The notes under the pieces: model-generated
The model's database searches: none
Told to the model about the DNA's origin: nothing
What the model saw: the letters and a program-made list of their open reading frames with translations, nothing else
Made by a program: the position numbers and the translations under genes
Shown: piece after piece, positions 501 through 25,909 of the stretch
How the letters are laid out: every line of letters begins with the position of its first letter
Numbering within the stretch: the stretch's first letter is position 1
Source of the DNA: Deltaproteobacteria bacterium
Lineage (GTDB): Bacteria; Desulfobacterota; Desulfarculia; Adiutricales; JAFDHD01
Assembly (NCBI GenBank): GCA_019308995.1
Contig: JAFDHD010000021.1
Coordinates: 1 to 34,452, forward strand
Direction: 5' to 3'
Length of the DNA stretch: 34,452 nt

Positions 501-1568
501 ATGATTGGTCTTTTGCAGGCTCTGGGCAATGGCATCTTAATCGGTTTGGTTTATGCACTTTTGGGTCTTTGTATCGTTATTATCTTCAAGGCCTCAGAGG
601 CCTTTAACTTCGCCATCGGAGAGTTTCTGGTTATCGGCTCCTTCCTTTTTTACATCCTGTTTTTTGATAAAAATCTTTCCTTGAGTAGAGCTCTCGTCTT
701 AGGAATTCTGATTTTTATATTTTTCTCTTATGTACTGATCTTCGATAGGAATCTTCACTTTATTATTTCTCTTCTCATTGGGCTGGTGGCCGGTTTTTCA
801 ACCTTTTACATAATTTTTTATGGTCTGAATCTTCCGTCCCTCCTTGCCAACCCCCTTCTTCGTTTCATTGTCGCACTACCCTTGGGGCTGGCCGCCGCGG
901 GCATGGTGGGATTAATTATTGAACGGCTGACCATCAAACCCCTGCTCGGACGGAATCCTATCTCCATGACCATGGTCGCCCTCGGATTGATCTTCTTTTT
1001 AAGGGCATCTGTTCAGCTTATTTTTGGATCGGACACGTACTCTTTCTTTCTCGATCTGCCAGACATTACTTTAGAAAGAGGAGATTTCCTGTTCCTGTCC
1101 GATCCGACCTGGGCTGGAATTCTCTCTATAATAACGTTTGGGTTGGTGATCTTCTTTCTTTTTCGCACGCGCTGGGGGCTGGCCATTCGAGCCGTCTCCG
1201 AGGACCAGGCCAAGGCTATGGCCTTTGGCATAGACGCCCGCTTCATATTACTTATGATCTGGGCCATCAGCGCAGTCTGCATCGCCGTGGCCGGGATCAT
1301 GATTTCCAACTTCGGCGCCCTGGCCTTTGGCTCCGGAATCGTGGGCATGCGGGCCATCCCGGTCGTGCTCATTGGCGGGATGGACAGCATTGGCGGCGCC
1401 CTGGTCGGCGGGATCATTATAGGCGTCTGTGAGGCCCTGGCCGGCGCCTATATAGAGCCCATGGGTCTGATCGGTTTCAAGGATGTGGCCCCCTATTTTC
1501 TGATGCTGATCGTGCTTTTCTTCCGGCCCTACGGCCTCTTCGGGACCGTTCGCATCGAGAGGGTTTAG
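501..1568 (+). CDS. livH: Branched-chain amino acid-type ABC transporter permease LivH, with an inserted hydrophobic segment
   Basis: Integral inner-membrane permease of a HAAT/Liv-type ABC importer. The start ATG at 501 follows GAGGGG (490-495) at 5 bases. The N-terminus (GLLQALGNGILIGLVYALLG) and the second half with RWGLAIRAVSED, IGGMDSIGGALVGG and the terminal FFRPYGLFG pattern are characteristic of LivH. At 355 residues it is about 60 longer than usual; the extra part is a very hydrophobic stretch at about residues 55-115, which looks like one or two added membrane spans, and the DNA there (about 680-850) is more AT-rich than the rest of the gene. livF follows after two bases, so the genes are co-transcribed. 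The substrate is unknown; an acyl-CoA ligase within the same operon suggests an organic acid rather than an amino acid, which is inference. Confidence 0.9.
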   Translation: MIGLLQALGNGILIGLVYALLGLCIVIIFKASEAFNFAIGEFLVIGSFLFYILFFDKNLSLSRALVLGILIFIFFSYVLIFDRNLHFIISLLIGLVAGFSTFYIIFYGLNLPSLLANPLLRFIVALPLGLAAAGMVGLIIERLTIKPLLGRNPISMTMVALGLIFFLRASVQLIFGSDTYSFFLDLPDITLERGDFLFLSDPTWAGILSIITFGLVIFFLFRTRWGLAIRAVSEDQAKAMAFGIDARFILLMIWAISAVCIAVAGIMISNFGALAFGSGIVGMRAIPVVLIGGMDSIGGALVGGIIIGVCEALAGAYIEPMGLIGFKDVAPYFLMLIVLFFRPYGLFGTVRIERV

Positions 1569-1570
1569 GC

Positions 1571-2356
1571 ATGCTGGCTATTGAAAACTTAAGAGTCGTT
1601 TATCACGACGTGATCTCTGTTTTGAACGGGATGTCCCTGGAGATCAAGGATGGCGAGATCCTGGTCATCATCGGGGCCAACGGTGCGGGTAAGACCACCC
1701 TCCTGCGCGCCATTGCGGGCATGATTGACTTTTACGATGGCGACATCATTGACGGCGATATCAAAATGAACGGGGCCTCCATCAAGGGGCTGGATGCCAC
1801 CGATATTATGAAACGATACGGCCTGACCTATGTCATGGAAGATCGGCCGGTCTTCTGGTACCTGACCATCGAAGAAAACCTGGCCGCCGCCTCTTACTCC
1901 CGATGGGACAGACAGGTGAAGGCCGATATGGAGCAGGTCTTCGAGTACTTCCCGGTGCTCGGACCCCTGAAAAACAAGAGGGCCGGCTATGCTTCGGGTG
2001 GTGAACAACAGATGCTCGCCATTGGTATGGCCCTCATGACCAAGCCCAAGATGATGCTCCTGGATGAGCCTTCCCTGGGACTGGCCCCCCTGATCACCGA
2101 GGAGCTCTTCAGTATCATTAAGCGGCTCAACGAGGCAGGGATCACCATCATGCTCGTGGAGCAAAACGCCTTTGCCGCCCTCAATATCGGCACACGCGGC
2201 TATGTTATCGAGATGGGGCGCATCGTTCTTGAAGGCAAGGCGGATGAGCTTCTGGAAAACGAGGACGTCCGGGAGTTCTATCTGGGATCGGGGGAAAAGG
2301 AACGAAAAAGCTACAAGGACGCCAAACGATACAAGAGACGGAAACGATGGCTATAA
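1571..2356 (+). CDS. livF: Liv-type ABC transporter ATP-binding protein LivF
   Basis: Cytoplasmic ATPase subunit that powers the LivH/LivM permease. It carries Walker A (GANGAGKTT, about residues 36-44), an ABC signature in the form ASGGEQQ, Walker B with MMLLDEPSLGLAP, and the H-loop equivalent replaced by Gln in VEQNAFAAL, as is usual for LivF. The body matches LivF length, but the C-terminus ends in a lysine/arginine-rich tail of about 20 residues. The ATG at 1571 lies 7 bases after AGAGGG (1558-1563). Its last 10 bases overlap the start of livG, indicating translational coupling. Confidence 0.93.
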   Translation: MLAIENLRVVYHDVISVLNGMSLEIKDGEILVIIGANGAGKTTLLRAIAGMIDFYDGDIIDGDIKMNGASIKGLDATDIMKRYGLTYVMEDRPVFWYLTIEENLAAASYSRWDRQVKADMEQVFEYFPVLGPLKNKRAGYASGGEQQMLAIGMALMTKPKMMLLDEPSLGLAPLITEELFSIIKRLNEAGITIMLVEQNAFAALNIGTRGYVIEMGRIVLEGKADELLENEDVREFYLGSGEKERKSYKDAKRYKRRKRWL

Positions 2357-8206: not shown

Positions 8207-11134
8207 ATGAGCCAGGAAGAACTTGATAAAGATTCCGTATCATTTTTTGCAGGACTGGAAATTGGCGCTGTTTCCGTGAAATGGGTTCGCCGGACAAAAG
8301 ATGGAGAGACCATGGCTGAGGTGATCCAGCATGGAGGCAACCCCAGGCAAAAGGTCCGGGAACTTCTTGAACGCCATAAGTCTGGAAATAATGCGCGTCT
8401 CGTCGTGACCGGCCAGGCGGCCAGGCTTCTCCTGGACCTGCCTTACCGGGCCGAGACGGAATGCCTGGAAAAGGCCCTTGCGTTTCACGATCTTAAGCCC
8501 GACATTCTCCTGTCCCTGGGCGGGGAGACATTCAGCGTCTACCCCATGAAGGACGGCCTCATAAAAAATATTATTTCGACTTCCAAGTGCGCCGCAGGCA
8601 CCGGAGAATTCATTGTCCAGCAATTTCAAAGGATGGGCCTGTCTCTTAAGGAGGGCCTTAAGGCAAGTGAAAATGGCAGGATTATTCAGCTGGCCACCCG
8701 ATGTTCCGTGCACTGTAAGTCTGACGCCACTCATAAGCTCAACAAAGGTGAATGTCAACCCGGGGACATCGCAAAATCCCTGATCCATGATCTGGCGAAA
8801 AAGGTCAGCGAAATGGTTGACCTGGCCGGGTGGCCGACGCGCTTGATCGTGATTTCCGGCGGGGTGGCCAGGAACGAGCTCTTTGTTGAAAGCTTTCGCC
8901 GGTTCCACAAAGACGCAGAAGTGAAGGTGCTCCTGGAAAGTCCCTACCTTGAAACCTTCGGGGCCTCTCTTTACGCCTCGGAACTACCCCCCAAAACCAC
9001 CACCCCTTCAATCAACAAATGGATCAGGACTGCGGAGATCGAGTTCGAAACGCTCAAACCGCTCAAGGAGGCCGAGCCGCTCCTGGATTACAGGGTTCAG
9101 GCGAATACCCCTAAAGAAATCATTGAAGGCGCTTCTTATATCCTGAGCGTGGATGCCGGTTCAACCACCACCAAAGCGGTGCTGTTCAATGCGGCCGACG
9201 GTTCGGTGGGCGCGAGCTGTTATCTCCGTACTTTGGGGAATCCAGTTCTGGCGACAAAGAGGTGTCTGGAAGAACTCATCGAGCAGGTCGGGTTAAAATT
9301 CATAAAAATCATTCAAGCTGGCACGACCGGTTCAGCCAGGGAGATGGTTTCAGTGTATCTGGACAACTGCCTCACCTTTAATGAAATCCTGGCTCATGCC
9401 CGAGCGGCCTCCGAAGAAGTCCCGGACGTAGATACGGTCTTTGAAATCGGCGGCCAGGACTCGAAATTCATCTCTTTCCTGAAAGGGATTCCGATTGATT
9501 ACGCCATGAACGAGGGGTGTTCAGCCGGAACAGGCAGTTTTCTCGAGGAATCGGCCTCCGTGGACATGGGTGTCGCCATGGAGGAGATCAGCCGCCTGGC
9601 CGAAGAAAGCCTTTATCCGATTGCCTTTGGCGAACGGTGCGCCGCTTTTATCAATACTGATTTAAGGAACGCTCTGCAGCAGGGGGCCAGCCGGGAAGAT
9701 GTCATTGGCGGTCTGGTCTATTCTATTGCCGAGAATTATAACTCGCGCATTGTCGGTCCCCGGCACGTGGGGATGAATCTTCTCTTCCTGGGCGGCGTGG
9801 CCCTGAATAAGGCGGTGGCCCTGGCCATGGCCGCCCGGACGCAGCGCAAGATCGTGGTGCCTCCCCACCCCGAACTTATGGGGGCTGTGGGGATCGGTCT
9901 CATGACCAGGGATCTCCTGCGTCAGCATGACGCTCATGAGAAGGTTTATAAGCTTGAGGACCTCATCCAGGGCGAGCTGCAAGTCAAAGAAACCTTCCGC
10001 TGTAAAGCCTGCGAAAATAAATGCGAAATCCAGAGCATTGTCATCAGAGGCAAGAGTTACCCCTTTGGGGGGCTTTGTTCCAAATATGAAAAACTGCGTC
10101 ATGAAGGCGACCAGGTGAAAGAGGGCCGCGACCTGGTGGCTTTACGAAACAGGATCATGTTCGAGGAATTCGGGCCTCAACCCGTGGAAAACCGGCGCGG
10201 CGCCATCGGTCTGCCCATGGCGCTCACCACCCTTGAACTCTTTCCTTTTTATGTAAAACTCATCAACGCCTTGGGTTATGACGTCGTGCTTTCAAACCCT
10301 TCCAAGGCTGGAAACGCCAAAGCGACCTCAGCCATCTGTTATCCCTGCGAGGTTGTCCACGGGGCCGTCCATGACCTTTTGAACCGGGAGGTTGATTTTA
10401 TCCTTTTACCTCATGTCATTGAACTGGAAATACCTGAAGGTGCTCTTCACAGCTACACCTGTCCTTCGACGACCATTATACCGGATGTCATACGGGCAGC
10501 CTTTGAAGAGGCGGCCGATAAAATTCTCTCCCCCCATATTGCGCTTTCCAGGGACCTCATGGAAACGACCTTCAAAGAGATTGAGGAGATGGGCCTTTTA
10601 CTGGGGTTGGATGAGGACACGGCCAAAAAAGCGGGCCAGGAAGCCGTGTGGCACTATGAAAAGTTTAAGAAGGTCTATCGAGAACGAGCTAGAGAGGAAC
10701 TGGAAGCCTTGGCCAGGGAGCCAACGGTCGTCCTGGCGGGCCGGCCTTATTCTACCTGCTCCTCCGAGGTGAACCTGGCCTTGCCTCGCAAGATCACCAG
10801 TAGAGGCTTTCATGTCGTGCCGGTTGATATGCTGCCTCCATTAAGTGACGCTTTGCCTCAGCGTGATGTCTGGCACTTTACCCAACAGATCAGCAATGCT
10901 GTGAGGCATGTTCAGAATAATTCCAATTTATATATCTGCCTTCTTTCCTGTTTTTCCTGCGGACCTGACGCCAGCATGTATCACTACTTCCGCCAGACGC
11001 TCTCGGGGCAGACCTTCTGTTACCTTGAGATTGATTCACACACGGCCCATGCCGGTTTTGAGACGCGCGTGGGCGCGTTCCTTGATATTATTGAAGGGCG
11101 GCGGCGCAAGGGAGAAGACCAAAAACCGAAGTGA
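8207..11134 (+). CDS. Acyl-CoA dehydratase activase-type protein: two BcrAD/BadFG/HgdC ATPase domains plus DUF2229-like region
   Basis: A 975-residue protein related to the ATP-dependent electron donors of 2-hydroxyacyl-CoA dehydratases and benzoyl-CoA reductases. Two ASKHA ATPase domains occur in tandem. Domain 1 (about 14-260) has a degenerate phosphate loop (GLEIGAVSVK) but keeps KCAAGTGEF (Cys128), RCSVHCKSD (Cys166) and SGGVARN. Domain 2 (about 312-570) is canonical: SVDAGSTTTKAV, IGGQDSKF, NEGCSAGTGSF (Cys438), GERCAAF (Cys478), LGGVALN. In HgdC the two equivalent cysteines ligate a 4Fe-4S cluster at the dimer interface, so both domains could supply ligands. The remainder (about 598-960) starts with a cysteine cluster (CKACENKC) and has the CYPCEVVHG motif of the dehydratase-like DUF2229 region. 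ATG at 8207 has GAGG 8 bases upstream. The partner gene starts 23 bases after its stop. Confidence 0.85.
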   Translation: MSQEELDKDSVSFFAGLEIGAVSVKWVRRTKDGETMAEVIQHGGNPRQKVRELLERHKSGNNARLVVTGQAARLLLDLPYRAETECLEKALAFHDLKPDILLSLGGETFSVYPMKDGLIKNIISTSKCAAGTGEFIVQQFQRMGLSLKEGLKASENGRIIQLATRCSVHCKSDATHKLNKGECQPGDIAKSLIHDLAKKVSEMVDLAGWPTRLIVISGGVARNELFVESFRRFHKDAEVKVLLESPYLETFGASLYASELPPKTTTPSINKWIRTAEIEFETLKPLKEAEPLLDYRVQANTPKEIIEGASYILSVDAGSTTTKAVLFNAADGSVGASCYLRTLGNPVLATKRCLEELIEQVGLKFIKIIQAGTTGSAREMVSVYLDNCLTFNEILAHARAASEEVPDVDTVFEIGGQDSKFISFLKGIPIDYAMNEGCSAGTGSFLEESASVDMGVAMEEISRLAEESLYPIAFGERCAAFINTDLRNALQQGASREDVIGGLVYSIAENYNSRIVGPRHVGMNLLFLGGVALNKAVALAMAARTQRKIVVPPHPELMGAVGIGLMTRDLLRQHDAHEKVYKLEDLIQGELQVKETFRCKACENKCEIQSIVIRGKSYPFGGLCSKYEKLRHEGDQVKEGRDLVALRNRIMFEEFGPQPVENRRGAIGLPMALTTLELFPFYVKLINALGYDVVLSNPSKAGNAKATSAICYPCEVVHGAVHDLLNREVDFILLPHVIELEIPEGALHSYTCPSTTIIPDVIRAAFEEAADKILSPHIALSRDLMETTFKEIEEMGLLLGLDEDTAKKAGQEAVWHYEKFKKVYRERAREELEALAREPTVVLAGRPYSTCSSEVNLALPRKITSRGFHVVPVDMLPPLSDALPQRDVWHFTQQISNAVRHVQNNSNLYICLLSCFSCGPDASMYHYFRQTLSGQTFCYLEIDSHTAHAGFETRVGAFLDIIEGRRRKGEDQKPK

Positions 11135-12668: not shown

Positions 12669-12736
12669 GGTTAAACTTGGCTTTGGCCGGTCATTTTGCA
12701 GATAGCCGGCTTAAATACGAAAACAAGGAGAAGGCA

Positions 12737-14173
12737 ATGAATACAAGTCGTGACTGGGAAAAATTGATTCGAAGGATGGAATTGTTGATGAGGCTAAAAT
12801 CCTTTCCAGTAGCCTTTAAACTGCTGGAGGATAAAACAAAGCTTGATGAAATCCTATTTATGCGCAGGTTAGATCACCCATCTACACTTTGCCAGCTCAT
12901 CAACCTTGTCAGGAGTTTTGATTGGACAGTTGGTGCAGATGTTGACGGTCTTCTGGGCAATAACTGCGCTTCTATTATCGGTCTTTCTGATATCCCTCAA
13001 TTCATGAAAGAGGGGATATTTAGAAGTATCGTCTGGACCCAGAGCCGGGCAGATGGCAAGAAGTATGAAAACTCGATTCCTCGCCTGCCCCTGGGAAAAT
13101 ATGAGGCAGTGGCAATGGCGCCGCTCGTCTATAAACCATTTGAGCCTGATATTGTCCTTATCTATGCCAATCCGGCTCAAATGATGCTTCTTATTAACTC
13201 CCTGCAATTCGAAGACTATGAGGTCATGGAATTCTATTGTGTCGGTGAAACGTCCTGTGCTGACGCTATTGCCAGGTGCTATTTGACGAACAAACCTTCC
13301 CTGACCATCCCCTGCTATGGTGAGCGCCGCTATGGTCACGCTCAGGATGATGAATTGGTCATGGCGGTGCCAGCCGAGTTGATGGAAAAGGCTCTTCGGG
13401 GGATGGAGGCTCTTTACAAAAGAGGCATTCGCTACCCCATCAGCTACGCGGGTGCTGAACAAGACGTGGCCCACGCCTTTCCGGAAACCTACAGCGGCCA
13501 GGAAAGATATCTCGCTTTAAGAGGAAAAGACAACAGACTGCTTCTAGGCGTTACCGGGGGCATTGCCACCGGTAAGACTGCTGTTGCGAAAATGCTGGAA
13601 GAACTGGGCGCACCGATTATTGATTTTGATGTGCTCAGCAGGGTGGTCGTGGACCCGGATAAACCTGCCTGGCAGGACATCGTTAATTTCTTTGGGGAGC
13701 AGGTCCTCCAGGAAGATCGTGCTTTAGACCGGAAAAAACTTTCTGAGATCGTTTTTCAAGACATGGAGAAGCGGAAAAAACTCGAAGGCTTCATTCATCC
13801 AAGAATCGGGGAGGAATTTGCCAGACTGGTTGAGGAATACGCTCGTCAGGACCCGGATGCTATCATTCAGGTGGTGATACCTCTCCTGATAGAAACGAAC
13901 ATGCATCCTATTTTTCATCATCTTTTAATGGTTTATGCCCCGGAGGAAGTACAGGTTAAACGTCTCGTGGAACGGGACAATATCACGGAAGAAATGGCTA
14001 TGAATATAATCAAGTCCCAGTTATCTGTCGAAGAGAAAAAAGGCTATTGCGATTTGCTTGTTGATAACTCAGGTTCACTTGAAGATACGCGTAAACAGGT
14101 TGAGGAGCTTTGGGAGCAATTAAAAAAAATTCAGCAGGAACGCAAGGAAAAGAAGAAAACATCTGAAGCGTGA
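12737..14173 (+). CDS. coaE: DUF169 domain-dephospho-CoA kinase fusion
   Basis: A 478-residue two-domain protein. Residues about 1-245 form a DUF169 domain: N-terminal PVAFKLLED, a central CASIIGL, and the diagnostic cysteine-containing CADAIARC, LTIPCYGERRYG and DDELVMAVP patterns. Residues about 265-465 are a complete dephospho-CoA kinase: P-loop GGIATGKT (274-281), the IIDFDVLSR substrate motif, LDRKKLSEIVF, HPRIGEEF, IPLLIET and the C-terminal LVERDNITEEMA lid region. CoaE phosphorylates the ribose 3'-OH of dephospho-CoA, the last step of CoA synthesis. ATG at 12737 is placed 6 bases after AAGGAG (12725-12730); an upstream TTG in frame lacks such a site. The tail is Lys/Glu-rich. DUF169 has no settled function, so the role of the fusion is open. 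No stop or frame change separates the domains. Confidence 0.85.
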   Translation: MNTSRDWEKLIRRMELLMRLKSFPVAFKLLEDKTKLDEILFMRRLDHPSTLCQLINLVRSFDWTVGADVDGLLGNNCASIIGLSDIPQFMKEGIFRSIVWTQSRADGKKYENSIPRLPLGKYEAVAMAPLVYKPFEPDIVLIYANPAQMMLLINSLQFEDYEVMEFYCVGETSCADAIARCYLTNKPSLTIPCYGERRYGHAQDDELVMAVPAELMEKALRGMEALYKRGIRYPISYAGAEQDVAHAFPETYSGQERYLALRGKDNRLLLGVTGGIATGKTAVAKMLEELGAPIIDFDVLSRVVVDPDKPAWQDIVNFFGEQVLQEDRALDRKKLSEIVFQDMEKRKKLEGFIHPRIGEEFARLVEEYARQDPDAIIQVVIPLLIETNMHPIFHHLLMVYAPEEVQVKRLVERDNITEEMAMNIIKSQLSVEEKKGYCDLLVDNSGSLEDTRKQVEELWEQLKKIQQERKEKKKTSEA

Positions 14174-22969: not shown

Positions 22970-24079
22970 TCAGCCTTCATAAGAGGTCTTGAGGCCTTTA
23001 TCCTTTTCAAATCGTTCTATGGCAAGCTGGATGAGCCGGTCTATCAACTCCGGATAAGAGAGGCCCGACGCCTCCCAGAGCCGCGGATACATACTGATCT
23101 TTGTAAAGCCGGGGATGGTGTTGATCTCGTTTACAATGACTTCATTATTCGTCTTAAGGAAAAAGTCCACGCGGGCCATGCCTTCGCAGCACAGGGTCTT
23201 AAAGGCCTTAATCGCCAGGTCCTGAACCTGACCGGTAATCTGAGCCGGCAGTTCTGCCGGGACCTTCAAAAGAGCGCCGTGTTCATCAATGTATTTGGCT
23301 TCGTATGAGTAAAATTCATGGGAAGGGATGATTTCACCGGGCACTGAAGCAATGGGGTCCTCGTTTCCCAGGACAGAACACTCAATTTCTCTTCCTTCAA
23401 CATGTTCTTCAATTATGACCTTATGATCGAATTGAAACGCCTCGTCAACGGCCTGCTCAAACTGATCCATGTCGTGGACCTTGCTAATCCCGATGGAAGA
23501 GCCGTAGTTGGCCGGTTTGACGAAAAACGGCAGCCCCAACCGGGCCTTGATATCCTCAAAATTCATCTCGTTTCGCAGATGCAGGTTAAAGATAAGAAAC
23601 CTGGCGATTGGAATTTGAGCGTCCCGAAGCAGCCTCTTCATGACGTCCTTATCCATGCCCAGGGCTGAACCCAGAACACCGGCTCCGACAAAGGGAAGAT
23701 CGGCCAGTTTTAATAACCCCTGAATCGTGCCATCCTCTCCAAAGGGGCCGTGCAGGATCGGGAAGACCACATCAATCGGCCCCACGGACCCTGGCCCGGA
23801 AGGGCTGACGAGCCGCTCCTGGCTGCCGCCGGGAATCAGGCTTATCCGGGCGTCGGAATCATGTATCTTGATTCTTTTCGGGTCCTCATCATGGAGCAGA
23901 TACCGCGAGGTCTCCAGGAGGGACCACTGTCCCTTTTTGTCAATGCCAATCAGGATCACCTCATATTTTTCCTGGTCAATGGCTTCCAGCACGTTTTTAG
24001 CTGACCGAAGGGAAACTTCATGTTCACCGGACTTGCCGCCGAAAAGAATCCCGACCCGTATCTTTTTACCCATGTTCAC
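22970..24079 (-). CDS. ddl: D-alanine--D-alanine ligase
   Basis: ATP-grasp enzyme that joins two D-alanines for peptidoglycan precursor synthesis in the cytoplasm. Motifs are clear: FGGKSGEHEVSLRSA at the N-terminus, LHGPFGEDGTIQG, GAGVLGSALGMDKDVMK, VKPANYGSSIGISKV, EEHVEGREIECSV and the C-terminal VNEINTIPGFTKISMYPRLW with the metal-binding Glu/Asn. The 369-residue length fits the longer DdlA/Van-type group. The frame opens with MNMGKK, so the start may be at either ATG two codons apart. It is the third gene of the strand and begins 6 bases after the TonB-like stop. Confidence 0.93.
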   Translation of the reverse strand: MNMGKKIRVGILFGGKSGEHEVSLRSAKNVLEAIDQEKYEVILIGIDKKGQWSLLETSRYLLHDEDPKRIKIHDSDARISLIPGGSQERLVSPSGPGSVGPIDVVFPILHGPFGEDGTIQGLLKLADLPFVGAGVLGSALGMDKDVMKRLLRDAQIPIARFLIFNLHLRNEMNFEDIKARLGLPFFVKPANYGSSIGISKVHDMDQFEQAVDEAFQFDHKVIIEEHVEGREIECSVLGNEDPIASVPGEIIPSHEFYSYEAKYIDEHGALLKVPAELPAQITGQVQDLAIKAFKTLCCEGMARVDFFLKTNNEVIVNEINTIPGFTKISMYPRLWEASGLSYPELIDRLIQLAIERFEKDKGLKTSYEG

Positions 24080-24085
24080 GCCCCC

Positions 24086-24700
24086 TTATTTCACGCCGAT
24101 GTACTGGAACCGGTAGTCAAAAACGGCCCGGATATTCAGACGTTTGAGTTTAATATGGTCCGGAAAGCCCGGGTAAGGGGCGGCCCGGTGCAGCGCTTCG
24201 AGAGCGGCTTCGTCCAGGACGGCATGGCCCGAGGAGGAATCCAGGACGACCCGCAGGAGCCTCCCGTCGCTGCTCAAGGTAAAGACAGCCATGAGCCGGC
24301 CGCCTGCGATGTTTTTCTGGGCTCCAGCCGGGTAGATCCAATGATTTTTGATCCGGTTCTTAATCTGGTGCATGTAGGAAAGATATTCAGGCGCCTTACT
24401 TTCCAGGGAAATGGTGTCCTCATTCTCTGAATCGGCGTCAAGGACCGCCTTTACAGAGGTTTTCGAGGCCTTATCAGTTAGAACCCTGTCAGCCGTTTTT
24501 TTCAACTCTTCAAGCACGGGTTTTTTCAGGGAAGCAACGTCAATTTCCACTTCCATGACTAGCGGCGGACTGCTCATTGAGGCTGGTAATGGCGGCGCAT
24601 ATTGAAGCAAGGCGAAGCCCAGGATGTGAACCCAGGCTGAAATGACCAGGGCCAGGCCCAGGTCCAGCCCCTGGCGCCGCTGCCCGTCAGAGTTAATCAT
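24086..24700 (-). CDS. TonB-like energy transducer C-terminal domain protein
   Basis: A 204-residue protein with a short cytoplasmic N-terminus (MINSDGQRRQG), a single membrane anchor at about residues 13-34 (LGLALVISAWVHILGF, with the small/aromatic pattern that contacts ExbB/ExbD) and a periplasmic TonB C-terminal domain (YMHQIKNRIKNHWIYPAGAQ, then VVLDSSSGHAVLDEAALEAL). A proline-rich spacer is lacking, so it is a shortened TonB or a TolA-like anchor. Starting at MINSD puts the ATG 8 bases inside the previous gene; a longer frame to 24814 would overlap that gene by 120 bases and is not preferred. No exbB or exbD is in the window. Confidence 0.8.
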   Translation of the reverse strand: MINSDGQRRQGLDLGLALVISAWVHILGFALLQYAPPLPASMSSPPLVMEVEIDVASLKKPVLEELKKTADRVLTDKASKTSVKAVLDADSENEDTISLESKAPEYLSYMHQIKNRIKNHWIYPAGAQKNIAGGRLMAVFTLSSDGRLLRVVLDSSSGHAVLDEAALEALHRAAPYPGFPDHIKLKRLNIRAVFDYRFQYIGVK

Positions 24701-25829
24701 CCCCGACCCATAAATGTTCCTTTTTACGGTCGAACCACCATTGAGCCCAGTCCGTCTCCATGATCGCCTGGAAAAGGTCCTGGCCGACTTCTGTTTTGAC
24801 GCGTTTTTGAGCAAAGGTAAGCCATTCAGCAGCGTAACGGTTGCCCAGGTCCTGTTTTTCTTTCAGTTCAACGGCCAGGTCCAGCTGGTCAGCGTCGTTA
24901 GCCAATAGAGACTCAAGGGTTTCCCTGGCTCTGAATTCTTCGAGCAAGGCCTCGATCTCCGGCCCGCAAGGCACGTTGGTCGCGGAATCAGCTCCGGCCC
25001 GAACCTCGTCCACCTTCACATACTGCTTGTTGACGTAATTATGGTCACCAGTGCGGGCCTCAGGAAAATCATGAAATAAACAGAGATTAACCACCTTGAC
25101 CCGGTCCGCTCCTGGAGTCAGCCCGGCCAGGATGAAGCCCAAAATGGTGGTGCGGAAAGAATGTTCCGCCACACTCTCCGAACCATCTCCCAAGAATTGA
25201 TATCCTGAGCGCGGCGTTTTCTTGAGCATCCCGGCCTCGAAAAGAAAGTTGGCCACCTGTTTGAAGGTCACGTTGGAATTTCCTTTAAAAAGGCAGTCGA
25301 GGCAGATTTTCCTGCCTCCCACCCGAACCATCCGGGGCTCCATGGTGGGTTCGCCGCAGCTTTCACAAGGCAGACTGGCAAATATCCGGGCCGTGGGCGG
25401 CAGCTCTATCTTCACCTCCTCGACCTTAAAAAGCTCCTCGTCCGGCGTGTCCAGAAGCAGCCGGATGTATGTGGCGCGGTCTGTGGGGCCGTCGTTCTTT
25501 TGAGACTTGAGACTATCCCTGCGAAAGGAGAGGCGCACGCCCTGCCCCTCGGGTCTGTAAGCCAGTGTAAACACCTGCTTGCCCCAGTCCCGAAAGATAA
25601 GGTTGCCTTTGCCAAACGTACAGCCGGTCACGAACTGGATTCCATCCACCGCGCTGGAGTCGTTTTCGACAACGGCCACGAGTTCCTCGTCTTCCGCCCG
25701 TTCCCCGCCGAGCCGATTCAGGCCAAGCAAAGCGGCCCGGTACCCGATAAGCAGGCCGGGGCAGAGGTGTCCGTGAAAGCCGACAGCCTCCCGGAGAAGC
25801 TCATGTGAGTCGCCAAGGCTGGGGTCCAT
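24693..25829 (-). CDS. FmdE-HD domain fusion protein
   Basis: A 378-residue protein with three parts. Residues about 8-150 are an FmdE (FwdE) domain, marked by FHGHLCPGLLIGYRA and VTGCTFGKGNL; FmdE is known as a subunit/partner of formylmethanofuran dehydrogenase but stands alone in many anaerobic bacteria. Residues 155-179 hold two CxxC pairs (CESC, CLDC), a zinc-finger-like knuckle also typical for FmdE C-termini. Residues about 190-378 are an HD phosphohydrolase of the 5'-nucleotidase/YfbR-HDDC2 type: AEHSFRT (His223), FHDFPEARTGD (His253-Asp254) and NDADQLD (Asp312). The start was set at the second of two ATGs, because AGGAGG is 5 bases before it; the TTG upstream is not used. The fusion is unbroken and single-frame. 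Confidence 0.8.
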   Translation of the reverse strand: MDPSLGDSHELLREAVGFHGHLCPGLLIGYRAALLGLNRLGGERAEDEELVAVVENDSSAVDGIQFVTGCTFGKGNLIFRDWGKQVFTLAYRPEGQGVRLSFRRDSLKSQKNDGPTDRATYIRLLLDTPDEELFKVEEVKIELPPTARIFASLPCESCGEPTMEPRMVRVGGRKICLDCLFKGNSNVTFKQVANFLFEAGMLKKTPRSGYQFLGDGSESVAEHSFRTTILGFILAGLTPGADRVKVVNLCLFHDFPEARTGDHNYVNKQYVKVDEVRAGADSATNVPCGPEIEALLEEFRARETLESLLANDADQLDLAVELKEKQDLGNRYAAEWLTFAQKRVKTEVGQDLFQAIMETDWAQWWFDRKKEHLWVGDD

Positions 25830-25909
25830 CATCTCCTCCTTTATTCTCAAATAACACCATAAGTTGAGACCTCAAAAAAACATCCAGAGTTAAAAATTTA
25901 ATTCATTCT

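Follow-up and report, generated by a model that had tools for sequence, protein, structure and literature searches.

A single open reading frame on the minus strand of the window (the whole 34,452-nucleotide stretch of DNA that was analysed), at 24693-25829, encodes a 378-amino-acid protein in which an FmdE domain, a DksA/TraR-type C4 zinc finger and an HD phosphohydrolase domain follow one another. This FmdE-HD fusion is a new architecture made from known parts, with a restricted range. We consider it an even call that the protein acts as a metal-dependent 5'-(deoxy)nucleotide phosphatase in which a dimeric FmdE module and its C4 finger bind a metal or other ligand as a control, the whole going back to a single fusion event.

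Domain organisation and active sites

The list of open reading frames also holds a longer variant, 24693-25850, which starts at a TTG and gives a 385-aa form. The ATG at 25829 is the better start, being preceded by a GGAGG Shine-Dalgarno sequence, and the end coordinate of the first-pass annotation, 25829, agrees with it. In what follows, Pfam residue ranges are numbered on the 385-aa form and conserved residues on the 378-aa form. Pfam identified PF02663 (FmdE) at residues 25-142 (E 9e-37, 126.6 bits against a cut-off of 22.9), PF01258 (zf-dskA_traR) at residues 155-187 (35.8 bits against 24.9) and PF13023 (HD_3) at residues 207-358 (90.4 bits against 22.5). With all three domains over their cut-offs in a single frame, the claim of the first-pass annotation that FmdE and an HD phosphohydrolase are joined in one frame holds. 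An NCBIfam scan of the fusion protein gave no match at E <= 0.01.

The HD half (24696-25283, minus strand) carries R207, H223, H253, D254, E257, D262 and D312, which are invariant in 120/120 HD rows, including the 4 fused and 16 paired ones. In DatZ and relatives such as HDDC2, metal A is held by H, H, D and D and metal B by E and D, and an Arg stabilises the intermediate (PMC8065100, in the part drawn on here). Judged by motif order, the residues of the HD half correspond to this set. The HD half has every position that provides metal A, metal B or the Arg in YfbR-HDDC2-like 5'-nucleotidases. The annotation had called this half a complete enzyme of the nucleotide-phosphohydrolase kind, and indeed its metal and catalytic residues are all kept. 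A Trp next to the intermediate-stabilising Arg excludes ribonucleotides in DatZ (PMC8065100, same part); placed by eye, Tyr210 may occupy that position. In structural alignments the model of the fusion protein matched HDDC2 with a Z of 14.8 and YfbR with dAMP with a Z of 13.4, within a range of 11.4-14.8 for the fold shared with E. coli YfbR, human HDDC2, yeast YGK1 and AF1432. These solved enzymes are free single-domain proteins, whereas the HD half described here is fused. Its residues and fold look YfbR-like, yet it is filed under HD_3, and PF12917 (YfbR-like) stays below cut-off on the fusion protein (23.7 bits against 25.9).

The FmdE half has a thioredoxin-like core (approximate extent 25401-25829, minus strand) with the motif FHGHLC, which supplies H19, H21 and C23; D62, Q65 and T71 are also kept. 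The motif FHGHxC is carried by 50/50 FmdE rows, counted after removal of the divergent L120 and L138, and it is common to the fusion and 2gvi (Ta1109). The model matched 2gvi, 2glz and 3d00 with Z of 14.3, 13.9 and 12.6, respectively. According to the part of PMC2954224 used here, FmdE structures are dimers with a large cleft, the two-domain ones being domain-swapped, and two of three have a metal site in the core; 2gvi shows unexplained density near the metal. The fourth ligand of this N-terminal metal site is Cys55 in 2glz and Cys61 in 2gvi (PMC2954224, same part), and it is Cys in 49/50 rows, those of the other three fusions included, but the window copy has Ser59 (codon 25653-25655, minus strand). 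The fourth-ligand Cys is not universal in FmdE, and 3d00 lacks two other ligands. Ser59 may be a genuine change or an assembly error. As read from the sequence, the lost Cys counts against a metal sensor, and a metal-sensing role is doubtful in the window copy because the fourth ligand is Ser.

A CxxC knuckle had been assigned to the FmdE domain in the first-pass annotation. The knuckle is present, but it supplies two of the Cys of a distinct C4 zinc finger (C155, C158, C176 and C179; approximate extent 25290-25388, minus strand) that lies outside the FmdE core. Its four Cys are kept in 4/4 fused and 16/16 paired rows. A C4 finger also follows the core fold in 2gvi and 3d00 (SYN_00638); the solved FmdE members, however, stop after the finger, whereas here the HD enzyme then follows. 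An AlphaFold model of middling quality (pLDDT 77.6, pTM 0.60, 33 rows, with VIA-align mostly over the HD half) predicted that the junction, residues 177-203 (25221-25301, minus strand), forms one continuous helix running from the zinc finger into helix 1 of the HD domain.

Distribution and origin of the fusion

The single-frame fusion was found in 4 of the 63 genomes of the class, namely in 2/2 of family f1 and 2/2 of family f97, which bears out the description of such a fusion as unusual. The other three proteins are 81% (same genus), 65% and 59% (both from the second family, same order) identical to that of the window. As a refutation, the first-pass annotation had named the case that homologues are always two genes; this is untrue, three further genomes of the class having the single frame. 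Because these three have the same single frame, we excluded an assembly join or local frameshift. Sixteen of the 63 class genomes carry instead an FmdE gene followed by an HD gene on the same strand (15/20 in family f3 and 1/1 in f98). Compared with the fusion, the f3 pairs (for example L117, L129 and L136) are equal in order, strand and domains and about 50% identical, but instead of one chain they yield two proteins, whose genes meet in an NTGA overlap. Family f2 belongs to the order of the window as well; among the matches listed, 31/37 of its genomes had a strong HD match and none an adjacent FmdE.

The separate domains are common in the phylum, 224/297 sampled genomes matching one or both, and in that comparison FmdE and HD were adjacent only in seven f3 genomes among the matches listed. 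At E <= 1e-80, a search of 395 sampled genomes of the phylum found the fusion in its own genome only; a distant fusion would be missed by this filter, and the other three fused genomes are absent from the matches of this sample. A pattern scan extended to other phyla returned 116 relatives, of which 80 were kept, with the fusion in L004 and L005 and the pair in L076; across the 80 kept loci, fusion and pair were confined to the same lineages. tblastn matched 72 plasmid and 3 phage records, none spanning 80% of the query at a single site. A literature search over titles and the starts of abstracts found no publication on an FmdE-HD fusion. FmdE fusions elsewhere involve PF00994 and UPF0066 (PMC2954224, part consulted) as well as a tRNA methyltransferase domain and a transcriptional regulator (PMC11237513, part consulted).

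The gene pairs indicate how the fusion may have come about. Read from stop-to-stop frames, with ORF calls being imperfect in GC-rich genomes, 14 of the 16 pairs had a readable junction (L116 and L119 have no readable start motif and fall outside the count); 13/14 showed a four-base NTGA overlap and 1/14 a seven-base overlap. Free HD proteins start six codons upstream of an FLFE motif. A Met stands at exactly this position in 3/4 fusions, and the window copy has Phe there. Taken together, the NTGA overlap and the Met at the old HD start argue that the fusion probably arose once from a translationally coupled pair, as far as can be judged from sequence. Fused FmdE halves form one clade with support of 99/94 in a tree of 50 rows; fused HD halves also form one clade, with weaker support of 93/77 in a tree of 60 rows hand-picked from the 120 HD rows. 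This monophyly of both halves agrees with a single origin in which the stop within the overlap was lost. Between the two closest fusions, NG86 dN/dS was 0.077 and 0.054 for the two halves, with dS saturated, which places both under purifying selection.

In the scheme we propose, an ancestral FmdE gene and a downstream HD gene would have been translationally coupled via a four-base start/stop overlap; the stop would then have been lost, once, and FmdE and HD brought into one frame. An NTGA overlap leaves FmdE and HD out of frame with each other, and from this we infer that the fusion event must also have involved a small indel. The fusion is a clean example of a gene fusion out of a start/stop overlap, with the former start codon still visible.

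Genomic surroundings

The end of the fusion gene is overlapped by an ORF of TonB/TolA C-terminal type (24086-24814, minus strand), and the next gene on the same strand is a D-alanine--D-alanine ligase (22970-24079). Other flanking genes encode an acyl-CoA-ligase-alpha-like protein and an oxidoreductase of the old-yellow-enzyme type. The TonB-like gene adjoins HD in relatives too: in 11 loci a same-strand homologue lies 3' of HD. Some of these loci are one genome under two locus numbers, and genomes with a free HD are included. Scanned neighbours of the f3 pairs were a kinase, GT9, SurE, a PDZ protease, LGT and similar genes; elsewhere HD neighbours were isocitrate dehydrogenase, serS, a phosphonate-associated membrane protein family, a PilW-like TPR protein and EF-G. 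The conserved partners of HD and of the fusion indicate no pathway, and none of these surroundings links HD or the fusion to molybdenum, tungsten or methanofuran.

The first-pass annotation had also suggested that the FmdE part might bind a nucleotide-linked cofactor such as a molybdopterin or methanofuran-like group. TIGR03121, the A subunit of formylmethanofuran dehydrogenase, had nothing over cut-off in the fusion's own genome, which is 96.5% complete; no formylmethanofuran dehydrogenase gene was found among the window ORFs scanned, and Pfam and NCBIfam detected no Mo/W or methanofuran gene among the flanking genes. For a link to methanofuran or molybdopterin, the name of the family is the only support here. 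Formylmethanofuran dehydrogenase is moreover an operon partner of just 13/208 FmdE members and so does not define the family, most FmdE genes adjoining metal-ion transporters and members binding Zn or Ni (PMC2954224, in the part consulted).

Several loci were of interest in their own right. In two f2 genomes (L137 3566-7883 and L140 6635-10056) a free HD gene shares a four-base overlap with uvrA. The order in L137 is uvrA, HD and a TonB-like-looking protein, the last of which grouped with the TonB-like gene of the window, but not under a stricter clustering rule. This suggests a uvrA-HD operon in f2 and the possibility that HD is connected with the clean-up of nucleotides during DNA repair. 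Solitary FmdE genes lie beside FecCD-type ABC transporter clusters in L122, L152, L157, L160 and L162, an assignment made by clustering, with a domain scan for L122 only. At L152 (2515-6720, f3) the FmdE gene belongs to a second clade and is set amid ABC transporter genes, a methyltransferase and a tetrapyrrole methylase, a hint of uptake of a corrinoid or other tetrapyrrole. A 367-aa frame on contig C209 of genome G000 (1204-1899, minus strand; L186/L187) has two tandem FmdE matches. In the window itself, a 498-aa ORF at 12677-14173 (plus strand) is an unusual fusion of DUF169 (34-240) and dephospho-CoA kinase CoaE (289-469), and a 975-aa ORF at 8207-11134 (plus strand) combines a BcrAD_BadFG ATPase with DUF2229, in the manner of CoA-enzyme activases; genes for a branched-chain ABC transporter and AMP-binding proteins lie upstream of it.

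Possible functions of the fusion protein

In the mechanism we favour, the HD half would be a metal-dependent 5'-(deoxy)nucleotide phosphatase of the YfbR/HDDC2 (HD_3) kind, the FmdE and C4-zinc-finger module would form a dimer and bind a metal or small ligand, and the module, once ligand- or metal-bound, would control the phosphatase. Nucleotidase activity, dimerisation, ligand binding and control are here all inferred for the fusion protein. Against control by FmdE stands the fact that the HD of most relatives has no FmdE (in f2, none adjacent among the matches listed). Even so, FmdE fits better as a regulator than as a catalytic partner, since in most relatives HD can do without it.

Alternatively, the join may have been neutral: a small indel fused the coupled pair and was tolerated, the two domains work independently and their adjacency reflects operon history. 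With a four-base overlap one small indel is enough for a fusion, HD has varying partners (uvrA and the TonB-like gene in f2; isocitrate dehydrogenase, serS and others elsewhere), and an adjacent FmdE is usually absent beside it. We nonetheless regard this explanation as rather unlikely, given that order and adjacency persist in 16 genomes whose loci differ and that the fusion, conserved in both its halves, persists in two families. In addition, a second HD of the subfamily is absent from the fusion genome, where the next match covers part of the domain with 26% identity.

Fused neighbouring genes often encode steps within one pathway. The two halves might accordingly be consecutive enzymes, the FmdE half binding or releasing a nucleotide-linked cofactor or metabolite and HD dephosphorylating the freed nucleotide. 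The cleft of the FmdE dimer would fit a sizeable ligand, and the density near the metal of 2gvi is in keeping with this (PMC2954224, in the part consulted), but the literature examined reports no catalytic activity for FmdE, FwdA is not over cut-off in the genome, Mo/W genes are not nearby and one metal ligand is replaced in the window copy, so that we hold such a relay to be improbable. The binding of Zn or Ni by FmdE members and their usual place beside metal-ion transporters (PMC2954224, same part) would suit a metallochaperone in which FmdE and the zinc finger load or hold metal for the dimetal site of HD, as would the solitary FmdE genes next to FecCD-type transporter clusters at several loci. 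Those transporter-adjacent genes belong to other clades, however, solitary HD enzymes require no fused chaperone, and the site lacks one Cys in the window copy; we therefore judge metal delivery very unlikely.

FmdE is widespread in anaerobes, and a proven function is absent from the literature examined. The merger of two neighbouring genes, confined as far as seen to a small group of uncultured bacteria, hints that the FmdE protein controls or serves the HD enzyme. Together with the coupled pair kept in a related family, the fusion provides a Rosetta-stone link that opens the question of FmdE to simple enzyme assays. Going further, FmdE and its finger might be a general sensor or handler of a nucleotide-linked cofactor or metabolite, with HD consuming the FmdE ligand or being gated by it. 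We think this generalisation distinctly improbable; if true, it would identify HD as the partner enzyme of the module and give biochemistry its first way into the FmdE family.
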